From: Stenotrophomonas sp. 610A2
GTDB lineage: Bacteria > Pseudomonadota > Gammaproteobacteria > Xanthomonadales > Xanthomonadaceae
Assembly (NCBI RefSeq): GCF_030549615.1
Contig: NZ_CP130832.1
Coordinates: forward strand, 620,001 to 684,000
DNA: 64,000 nucleotides
Direction of reading: 5' to 3'
The notes under the pieces are model-generated. The model was given only the letters and a program-made list of their open reading frames with translations. It was not told the origin of the DNA and ran no database searches. Made by a program: the position numbers and the translations under genes. Shown piece by piece: positions 43,209 to 45,814 of the stretch (position 1 is its first letter; every line of letters begins with the position of its first letter).

Positions 43209-44138
43209 ATGCACCCAGCGCCCTGTTACCTGATCCTCAATGGCAAGTCCGCAGGCGACGATGCCGTGCGTGATGCGGTTGCGCAGTTGCGCGGGCAGGG
43301 CCAGGACCTCAAGGTGCGGGTGACCTGGGAAGCAGGTGACGCCGAGCGTTATGTGCGAGAAGCCATCGCTGCACAGGCGCAGTTGCTGATCGCTGGCGGC
43401 GGTGACGGCACCTTGAGCGAAGTTGCCGAGGCGCTGGCGCACACCGGTCAGGATGCATCCCGATTGCCGGCTATGGCCTTGCTGCCGCTCGGCACCGCCA
43501 ATGACTTCGCCACCGCCGCCGGCATTCCCGTCGAACCGCTCGCGGCATTGCAGCTGCCAGCACATACGCAGGCACGCGCCATCGATTTGCTGCGCGTGGA
43601 AGGCGATGGCAAGGTGCACTGGTGCGCCAACCTGGCCAGCGGTGGCTTTGGCACCGAAGTGACGGTGGAAACCCATGAAGGCCTGAAGAAGATGCTCGGC
43701 GGCCTGGCCTACGTCATCACCGGGATCGGCAAGCTGGGGCGGATCGAGCCGATCCAGGCACGCATCCGTGGCGAGGATTTCGAGTGGCAGGGCGGTTTCA
43801 TCGCACTTGGTATCGGCAATGGCCGCCAGGCCGGTGGCGGCCAGCAGCTATGCCCGGATGCATTGCTCGATGATGGCTTGCTGGACCTGAGCATCATCCC
43901 TGAGCTGTCCGGCGAGCTGATGGCCACCCTCGGGACCTTGTTCAGCGAGGGCAAGCACGCCGCACTGGAGCAGGTGGCTGAACGCGCCCGCCTGAGCGAG
44001 TTGTGGATCGAGGCCGAGCAACTGCTCACCCTGAACCTGGACGGTGAACCGCTGCAGGCCCGGCGCTTCCATCTCCAGTGCGTGGAAGGCCGGGTACGCA
44101 TGCATCTTCCGGCGGAAACGCCACTGTTTGGCGGCTGA
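43209..44138 (+). CDS. yegS: YegS/BmrU-type lipid kinase
   Basis: 309 residues of the diacylglycerol-kinase fold. The start [20 protein letters not shown], the ATP loop [20 protein letters not shown] and [19 protein letters not shown] are the YegS motifs; [20 protein letters not shown] and [20 protein letters not shown] continue the family. It phosphorylates a lipid such as phosphatidylglycerol with ATP, at the inner membrane. The start at 43209 (MHPAPCYL) has GGAG seven bases upstream and aligns with E. coli YegS; an ATG four codons earlier is possible. Confidence 0.9.
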
Positions 44139-44211
44139 ATCGTTGCCACTGCAAGCATCTGATCATGTTGCAGATGCACACCGGGCGCCGTTCTTGCGGT
44201 AGAGTTGCGCG

Positions 44212-44361
44212 GTGCCCATTCTGACGACCAAGCGTTCCCTTTCTTCCGCTCGCCGCTGGTGGCGATGGTGGCCCGTTGCCGTCGTCCGTACCGCCACCGT
44301 CGATTCCCGGAAGGAAAGCCGTCTTGATCACGCAAGAGCAGTTCCAGCAGCTGGCCGCTGA
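44212..44361 (+). CDS. trpL: Putative trp leader peptide (49 codons, WWRWW run)
   Basis: A GTG-started frame upstream of trpE reads MPILTTKRSLSSARRWWRWW and then PVAVV. It has four Trp codons within five positions (44257-44271), far above chance. The frame has no stop before 44361, so it overlaps the trpE start (TTG at 44324) by 38 bases in another frame. A stop at 44200 limits it upstream, and the Shine-Dalgarno is weak. It would act as a sensor of charged tRNA-Trp, as leader peptides do in other bacteria. That translation occurs is an inference. Confidence 0.55.
   Translation: MPILTTKRSLSSARRWWRWWPVAVVRTATVDSRKESRLDHARAVPAAGR
44239..44318 (+). promoter_or_regulatory. Possible anti-Shine-Dalgarno pairing controlling trpE
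   Basis: CTTTCTTCCG at 44239-44248 can pair with CGGAAGGAAAG at 44308-44318, the trpE ribosome-binding site, giving ten pairs with one bulged G. It ends nine bases before the Trp codons. A competing pairing is GGTGGCG (44258-44264, over the Trp codons) with CGCCACC (44292-44298). No U run is present, so the control would be on translation. Confidence 0.5.
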
Positions 44362-45814
44362 AGGCCACAGCGCACACCCGCATAATTTCGTACCCGTCGT
44401 CCGCGAAGTGCTGTCCGACCTGGACACGCCGCTCTCGGTCTACCTGAAGCTCGCCGACGGTCCGTACACCTACCTGTTTGAATCGGTCGAAGGTGGTGAG
44501 CGCTTCGGGCGCTACTCCATCATCGGCATGCCCGCGCGCCGCACGTACAGCTTCCGTGGCCACACGCTGGAAGTCAGCGAGCTGGGCGAAGTCGTCGAGC
44601 GCCGCGAGGTGGCTGATCCATTGGCCGAGGTCGAAGTGCTGCGCAAGCAGTACTCGGTACCGCAGCTGGAAGGCCTGCCGGGCTTCACTGGCGGCCTGGT
44701 CGGCTGGTTCGGCTTTGAGTGCATCCAGTACATCGAGCCGCACCTGGGCGCGGGCGAAAAGCCTGATGAACTCGGTACGCCCGACATCCTGCTGATGCTG
44801 TCCGAAGAGTTGGCGGTGTTCGACAACCTCAAGGGCCGCCTGTACCTGATCGTGCACGCTGATCCGGCGCAACCGCAGGCCTGGGCACGCGCGAACCGTC
44901 GCCTCGATGAGCTGGCGCACCGTCTGCGTCAGGGCGGTGCCGGTTACCCGCAGTCGCAGGTGTCCGACGCCATCGACGAGCAGGATTTCCAGTCCTCGTT
45001 CACCCGCGAGGAATACCATGCGGTGGTGCGCAAGGCGCAGGAATACGTGCGTGCCGGCGATATCTTCCAGGTGGTGCCGAGCCAGCGCCTGCGCGTGCCG
45101 TTCCGTGCGCGGCCGATCGATGTCTACCGCGCGCTGCGCGCGTTGAATCCGTCGCCGTACATGTATTTCATCGATGTTGGCGGCACCCAGGTGGTCGGCT
45201 CCTCGCCGGAGATCCTGGCGCGGCTGCGCGATGGCATCGTCACCGTGCGCCCGATCGCCGGCACCCGCCCGCGCGGCGCCACGCCGGAGCTGGACAAGGC
45301 ACTGGAAGTCGAGCTGCTGGCCGATCCCAAGGAGCGCGCCGAGCACGTGATGTTGATCGACCTCGGTCGCAATGACGTGGGCCGCGTCGCTGAACCGGGC
45401 ACGGTCAAGGTCGGCGAGCAGTTCGTGATCGAGCGCTACAGCCACGTCATGCACATCGTCAGCGAAGTCACCGGCACCTTGAGGGCCGGCCTGAGCTATA
45501 GCGATGTGATGCGTGCGACCTTCCCGGCCGGCACCGTCAGCGGCGCGCCGAAAATCCGCGCGCTGGAGATCATCCGCGAGCTGGAACCGGTCAAGCGCAA
45601 TGTCTATTCCGGCGCGGTCGGCTACATCGGCTGGAACGGCGATGCCGATACCGCCATCGCCATCCGTACCGCGGTGATCCAGGACGGTTACCTGTACGTG
45701 CAGGCAGGCGGCGGCGTGGTCTACGACTCCGATCCGGATGCCGAATGGCAGGAAACCATGAACAAGGGCCGCGCGCTGTTCCGCGCGGTGGCGCAGGCGG
45801 CGAAGGGGCTGTGA
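44324..45814 (+). CDS. trpE: Anthranilate synthase component I
   Basis: 496 residues from a TTG start (MITQEQFQQLAAEG) with GGAAGGAAAG five bases upstream. It makes anthranilate from chorismate with ammonia delivered by TrpG. The regulatory Trp-binding element is LFES (51-54). The catalytic chorismate-binding domain fills the C-terminal half: IFQVVPSQRLRVPFRARPID, PSPYMYFIDVGGTQVVGSSP, IAGTRPRGATPELD, LIDLGRNDVGRVAEPGTVKV, and FPAGTVSGAPKIRALEIIRE. A leader peptide frame overlaps its start (see separate entries). The SIMPL-domain gene follows 77 bases after the stop codon. Confidence 0.95.
   Translation: MITQEQFQQLAAEGHSAHPHNFVPVVREVLSDLDTPLSVYLKLADGPYTYLFESVEGGERFGRYSIIGMPARRTYSFRGHTLEVSELGEVVERREVADPLAEVEVLRKQYSVPQLEGLPGFTGGLVGWFGFECIQYIEPHLGAGEKPDELGTPDILLMLSEELAVFDNLKGRLYLIVHADPAQPQAWARANRRLDELAHRLRQGGAGYPQSQVSDAIDEQDFQSSFTREEYHAVVRKAQEYVRAGDIFQVVPSQRLRVPFRARPIDVYRALRALNPSPYMYFIDVGGTQVVGSSPEILARLRDGIVTVRPIAGTRPRGATPELDKALEVELLADPKERAEHVMLIDLGRNDVGRVAEPGTVKVGEQFVIERYSHVMHIVSEVTGTLRAGLSYSDVMRATFPAGTVSGAPKIRALEIIRELEPVKRNVYSGAVGYIGWNGDADTAIAIRTAVIQDGYLYVQAGGGVVYDSDPDAEWQETMNKGRALFRAVAQAAKGL

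Follow-up and report, generated by a model that had tools for sequence, protein, structure and literature searches.

A Trp-codon leader overlapping the start of trpE in Xanthomonadaceae as a likely translational attenuator

We found that trpE in the 64,000-nucleotide stretch of Stenotrophomonas sp. 610A2 DNA analysed here (the window) is preceded by a leader ORF rich in Trp codons, which passes the trpE start in another frame and ends inside the gene. Sequence comparison makes it likely that this leader is a tryptophan-responsive translational attenuator: comparison across loci supports the leader, its frame, its in-gene stop, a species-matched pairing between an anti-Shine–Dalgarno (anti-SD) arm and the trpE Shine–Dalgarno (SD) region (P1), a second pairing (P2) and the lack of a U run. 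If true, this would explain how Trp synthesis is controlled in many Xanthomonadaceae where no TrpR is evident. This point was checked in the window genome, in which no TrpR is evident because the sole TrpR-family match lies directly before hisG, the position of HisR, which passages of PMC9413887 describe as the first gene of his operons, and in Xanthomonadales.

Results

A leader ORF crosses the trpE start in the window

ORF reading of the window showed that a GTG at 44212 opens a 49-codon leader ORF (MPILTTKRSLSSARRWWRWWPVAVVRTATVDSRKESRLDHARAVPAAGR) upstream of trpE. Four Trp codons stand in five positions (TGG TGG CGA TGG TGG, 44257–44271; WWRWW), and the frame crosses the trpE TTG (44324) to a TGA at 44359–44361, within trpE. 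The preliminary description of this DNA, made from the sequence alone, had reported the GTG frame, its Trp codons and the lack of an early stop, and all three were borne out. The features used below, all on the + strand, are:

44200..44205, + strand: candidate −10 box TAGAGT, from which transcription is predicted to start on or beside the leader GTG
44212..44361, + strand: leader ORF, 49 codons, whose position, frame and stop are conserved across loci
44239..44248, + strand: anti-SD arm, 5′ arm of P1, CTTTCTTCCG, from the fold and from own-versus-cross pairing
44257..44271, + strand: WWRWW codons, with the core GGCGATGG at 44261–44268
44257..44272, + strand: 5′ arm of P2, a nested hairpin, from the window's own fold
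44281..44299, + strand: 3′ arm of P2, with irregular pairing in the minimum-energy structure of the window leader
44308..44318, + strand: trpE SD region, 3′ arm of P1, CGGAAGGAAAG
44324..45814, + strand: trpE with a TTG start, Pfam Chorismate_bind and Anth_synt_I_N
44357..44361, + strand: stop site, trpE Ala codon 12 (GCT) plus GA of codon 13, which supplies the leader TGA

The window genome is a single contig of 4.68 Mb, and the best TrpE match among named organisms was Stenotrophomonas mori (95%, very near records possibly being excluded). Among the 4227 Rfam models, none matched the leader above its gathering threshold; only three tRNAs were found in the window.

Distribution of the leader

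TrpE matches were obtained in 394 of 395 family genomes, paralogues counted. We examined 141 trpE loci, made up of 89 from the family search, 40 genome loci from the genus search and 12 from named organisms; at least two of these are repeats (L003 = G125, L010 = G338), and locus G336 was left out since the contig ends there. The leader core GGCGATG[GC] stood at the expected place in 125 of the 141 loci, including 40/40 genus-search loci; the loci were retrieved via the core, so that its constancy is partly a selection effect. The 16 loci counted as lacking the core comprise eight family genomes, seven named loci (Rhodanobacter, Dyella, Frateuria, Oleiagrimonas and a MAG) and G364, in which the leader is present and the TrpE match is displaced. 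These locus sets were hand-picked from the best TrpE matches, and a model search gives a fairer frequency: model R1 (E 0.01) matched 160 of 247 family genomes and 32 of 54 genera, under strict filters that drop weak matches and irrespective of the position of each match relative to trpE. The Trp codons, the pairing arms and the frame overlap are conserved in most Xanthomonadaceae loci examined; the preliminary description had made its proposal depend on such conservation in related species, and this check did not overturn it.

Across 369 genomes of the class, R1 gave 11 matches, four of them within the family. Only one of the seven non-family genomes (G537) had its match before trpE in the fetched locus, and that leader stops early. 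Among 27 class TrpE loci beyond the family, 26 had no candidate leader and one (L253) had a single unconvincing candidate. Outside the family, the leaders of L017 and G537 (locus L223) end in KARTWRW and ADLGWRWRA, share the CGA core and stop early; because of this early stop, the overlap may have arisen later, inside Xanthomonadaceae.

Two side observations concern trpE itself. In three loci of Rhodanobacter and Dyella that have no leader (L006, L009 and L019), a TGGCC...GGCCA inverted repeat lies just before trpE and adjoins a TACAAT box. In addition, the window TrpE is about 92% identical to that of genus g18 genomes as against 76–83% to most genomes of its own genus, in which 13 of 91 members (the window genome itself counted) reach at least 93%; an exchange of trpE between the two genera is possible.

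The overlap and the in-gene stop are maintained

By match coordinates, 118 of 125 leader frames extended beyond the matched trpE start, and the phase between leader and trpE was identical in 123 of 125, at spacings of, for example, 58, 61, 64, 70, 73, 76 and 91 nt. The leader stop mostly falls on a trpE Ala codon GCT followed by GAA, GAC, AAC or AAA, and a stop also arises at sites with a Ser or Thr codon, or with AAC or AAA as the following codon. With a strict anchor, T occupied the third position of this Ala codon in 38 of 46 deduplicated overlap loci; three further stop-site loci were judged by eye to be slips of the anchor. Elsewhere in trpE, GCT made up 29 of 1571 Ala codons (1.8%; 35 loci, most from one genus), and nearby fourfold sites had 0–23% T, leaving aside one site with only two loci. 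The binomial value for the stop-site T ignores shared ancestry and is not a probability.

A stop ahead of trpE was scored in seven of the 125 loci, in six of these at 15–21 nt after the first core codon. Three have a single Trp codon, P1 is weak in some, and one (G065) probably overlaps if an upstream GTG is the true start; none of the seven forms a stop at the in-gene site. Of the 16 GGCGATGG-less loci, only G132, which has a variant core, makes the in-gene stop (G102 was not parsed). A counterexample is G231, in which the stop site reads GCG and the leader runs to +98.

A held-out set of 40 trpE loci, previously unread, was chosen solely by model R1. The stop is an independent test in this set because it lies outside the model; the model itself partly determines phase and spacing, and the −10 box served to pick the core. 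In all 39 scorable loci the phase was the same and the leader stopped inside trpE, at +35 in 29 and at +32 to +62 in the others (TGA 32, TAA 6, TAG 1), with GCT as the stop-site codon in 32, ACT in four and GAT, AGT and CCT once each. The fortieth locus (G139), read by eye, has CGACGG for the core, a WRRW leader and a TAA at the same site. Taken together, these comparisons indicate that the overlap is maintained by selection, since the in-gene stop is kept, mostly by the rare GCT, and all 39 held-out stops lie inside trpE.

The anti-SD arm is matched to the SD of its own species

The proposed pairing of CTTTCTTCCG (44239–44248) with CGGAAGGAAAG (44308–44318), ten pairs with one bulged G, is possible as described. 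In the predicted fold of 44212–44345, P1 took a nine-pair unbulged form (44240–44248 with 44308–44316) in both the minimum-energy and the centroid structure. The Trp-codon pairing had been described as an alternative to this helix, and here the description was wrong: in the fold, the P2 hairpin is nested inside P1. The folding that had been asked for as a check showed a stability not above that of shuffled sequences (z −0.63); the single sequence therefore proves nothing on its own, and conservation has to carry the argument.

We compared each anti-SD arm with the SD segment of its own locus and with those of permuted partners. Over 53 deduplicated loci, own-species P1 duplexes averaged −13.6 kcal/mol versus −11.6 kcal/mol for permuted partners (z −6.6; 0 of 20000 permutations as good), and permutation within lineage groups gave z −3.0 and −4.3 for two SD segments. 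Control segments ranged from z +1.5 to −2.6 ungrouped and from +2.1 to −2.6 over both tests, the extreme of −2.6 belonging to the first part of trpE without grouping. Analysed separately, neither the Stenotrophomonas/Xanthomonas-like group (14 loci, p 0.26) nor the short-leader group (7 loci, p 0.22, with a control segment doing better at p 0.054) showed a significant excess of P1; the third lineage group (20 loci) gave p 0.028. In the 32 loci outside the first two groups, one fixed P1 register reached z 3.0 versus −2.2 to 1.8 for eight shifted registers; a rigid-register dot-plot of all 53 loci gave a weak signal. Furthermore, P1 beat a shuffled arm in 47 of 53 loci (mean z −1.22).

For P2, the core paired above shuffled partners (mean z −1.65, 53 loci). 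RNAalifold on a mixed alignment of 25 leaders recovered only P2 and no compensatory double change, and the P2 core hardly varies. Of the support that the preliminary description had asked for, the comparison across loci upheld the conserved Trp codons, and the RNAalifold alignment showed no compensatory double change. CGA is rare in trpE (10 of 1461 Arg codons), and P2 pairing may explain why GGCGATGG, including this CGA, is kept even where the first Trp codon is missing.

The leader is probably leaderless

In 52 of 53 deduplicated loci the leader ATG or GTG is preceded, at a distance of 6–10 nt, by a TAnnnT hexamer (best candidate taken, no shuffled control); the distance is 6–7 nt in 43 and 6–8 nt in 48, and the hexamer is most often TACAGT (19) or TAAAGT (17). 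A consensus scan of 43600–44700 found no full sigma-70-type promoter. The spacing of the −10 box would put the transcript start at the start codon, and the leader mRNA is therefore probably leaderless, a feature that the preliminary description had overlooked.

A second copy before trpG in some relatives

We examined 20 further R1-matched regions, of which four are trpE sites and 16 lie before trpG (L257–L271 and L274); TrpG was identified by motif in all 16 loci and confirmed by profile in 8/8 scanned. In all 16 copies a −10 box is present, the phase is unchanged and the leader terminates within the ORF that follows. This ORF, a putative relay whose start before trpG was assigned from SD spacing, has 44–136 codons and no evident sequence conservation. 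Its end overlaps the assigned trpG start by 10–28 nt in 14 of the 16 loci; in one of the other two it ends 3 nt before the trpG start, and in one it is fused in frame to trpG. Some of these loci carry GAGG before trpG, and coupling therefore need not be the sole route to trpG initiation. Own-versus-cross pairing of the trpG copies gave z −2.8 (16 loci, not deduplicated). Four genomes carry both copies, and in two of these the anti-SD arm of trpE forms a stronger duplex with the SD of trpG than with the SD of trpE. The window genome has one R1 match and no trpG copy.

Proposed mechanism

For stalling, the transcript start, the direction of control and the reason for the overlap, we infer the following scheme. 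The transcript would begin at the leader's own start codon, and ribosomes would load at its 5′ end. When charged tRNA-Trp is scarce, a ribosome would stall on WWRWW, and its footprint would mask the anti-SD arm together with the P2 5′ arm, leaving the trpE SD free and allowing trpE to be translated. With ample Trp, the ribosome would pass the trpE SD and start codon in another frame and terminate some 35 nt into trpE; in its wake P2 and P1 would re-form and hide the trpE SD. The frame would be maintained because it avoids both a fusion of the leader to trpE and a stop placed exactly on the trpE start, either of which would give trpE ribosomes under the wrong condition. When such a stall was modelled, with assumed values for the ribosome footprint, the median cost of opening the SD fell from 7.2 to 4.0 kcal/mol; a control footprint placed downstream gave 3.7 kcal/mol. 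The model is consistent with the scheme and fails to separate it from the control.

Alternative readings

Between near pairs of loci, substitutions in the leader were spread evenly over codon positions (37/40/37 upstream and 20/21/21 downstream of the core), unlike those in trpE (45/53/112), and no conservation of the leader peptide outside W-R-W was found in them. This evenness argues against an arrest peptide and for a leader that is read by its codons. The strong conservation of W-CGA-W would suit a TnaC-like nascent peptide sensing free Trp; given the even substitutions, and given that GG-CGA-TGG persists where R or G replaces the first Trp, in line with RNA pairing, we consider such a peptide very improbable. 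Control at the level of transcription, in which translation of the leader would determine readthrough of a Rho-dependent or unrecognised terminator within it, also seems quite unlikely. A simple scan of 43600–44700 detected nothing resembling a terminator, and the longest T run from the Trp codons to trpE was 1–3 in 52 of 53 loci and 4 in one, in keeping with the earlier remark that trpE is not preceded by a U run; moreover, the species-matched pairing points to the SD. On the other side, a GC hairpin with a T run was seen by eye after the Trp-rich leaders of L026, L047, L050, L059 and L063, and Rho-dependent loss after translational repression is common. Because the peptide is unconserved outside W-R-W and no terminator was seen, a translational attenuator is the most likely reading.

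Ribosomes that stop about 35 nt inside trpE might also move back to its TTG or GTG and reinitiate, which would provide basal TrpE with Trp present, besides the initiation released by stalling. Backward reinitiation over such distances is known from RNA phage lysis genes, trpE combines a good SD with weak start codons, and the held-out stops fall at +35 in 29 of 39 loci and within +32 to +62 in all. The same distances are loose for such a mechanism, with +20, +35 and +53 in the trpG copies and +98 in G231, and the phase that would stop exactly at an NTGA start is unused in 123 of 125 loci; we therefore regard reinitiation as unlikely. A small ORF opened by the core ATG (44265) was considered as the real trpE coupler, as in many loci it ends in a TGA that shares bases with the trpE start. 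In G362 and G368 this ORF meets an early stop, and where trpE begins without NTGA (G031, G066 and G361) it has no stop at the start; we rejected it as scarcely credible. A programmed frameshift from the leader into trpE was discarded as a general mechanism: the leader-bearing loci L010, G037 and G107 have a trpE-frame stop between the core and the trpE start.

Discussion

The translational attenuator proposed here may represent a distinct design, a wider claim that we put forward tentatively and hold to be possible rather than probable. In it, a leaderless Trp-codon ORF would have to read across the target's start codon out of frame and end soon afterwards, within the target, so that translating ribosomes reset the start site; the same module would be reused before trpG, where it would drive a relay ORF of variable sequence and convey the Trp signal to trpG through translational coupling. 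Judging from the trpG copy, an ORF without a conserved product may serve as a relay for attenuation signals. The trpE leader offers a case in which the overlap of a regulatory ORF with its target appears visibly maintained by selection on a synonymous site, and in-gene stops kept by rare synonymous codons could reveal other hidden overlapping leaders.

In the E. coli trpL attenuator, stalling at tandem Trp codons is the sensor, and the leader is led by an SD, stops early and is followed by an intrinsic terminator. The leader studied here would share the sensor, if stalling occurs as proposed; an intrinsic terminator, an SD-led leader and an early stop were not seen in the window leader. No U-run intrinsic terminator was found between leader and trpE, and in 118 of 125 loci the leader extends into the structural gene; in both respects it departs from a classical trp attenuator. 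It differs from arrest peptides of the TnaC and ErmCL type in that no conserved nascent peptide was found. The betaproteobacterial loci L026, L047, L050, L059 and L063 also have a Trp-rich leader before trpE, with WRWW in four of the five; they differ in their Arg codon (CGC in those four), in an early stop and in a terminator-like hairpin with a T run (by eye). Another, probably leaderless, Trp leader was observed in 35 of 67 beta- and gammaproteobacterial trpE loci (within L027–L081), mostly with RGAWPWR or RGAWLWR and with a TACACT or similar box 6–9 nt before the ATG; T runs of 4 or more are absent upstream of trpE in 25 of these 35.

The trpL of Sinorhizobium meliloti (rnTrpL/peTrpL) is a leaderless Trp-codon leader before trpE that encodes a 14-residue peptide and acts by transcription attenuation, according to sections of PMC7298713 and PMC10117765. 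It resembles the present leader in its Trp codons and its place before trpE, and would also resemble it in the leaderless start if the start predicted here is correct; it differs in its 14-residue peptide and its transcription attenuation, and those sections mention no overlap with trpE. Another related kind is the translational attenuators of amino acid operons, in which a leader with cognate codons is combined with a structure hiding the ribosome-binding site of the first gene; PMC9413887, in the passages at hand, describes attenuators whose terminator is replaced by such a structure. The present leader has the upstream ORF rich in cognate codons and, by computation, the SD-sequestering helix, the latter without significance in two of three lineage groups taken alone. 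Compared with the general scheme in those passages, the leader overlaps the gene with its in-gene stop kept, and the anti-SD arm adjoins the Trp codons. The antibiotic-sensing uORF of PMC12121999 offers no closer parallel in the portion of that source consulted. A literature search by title and abstract opening, partial in coverage, found no trp leader in Xanthomonadaceae, and comparative papers may mention one. Translational attenuators and leaderless trp leaders are already known kinds; within the literature searched, what is new is the maintained overlap and the proposed trpG relay.
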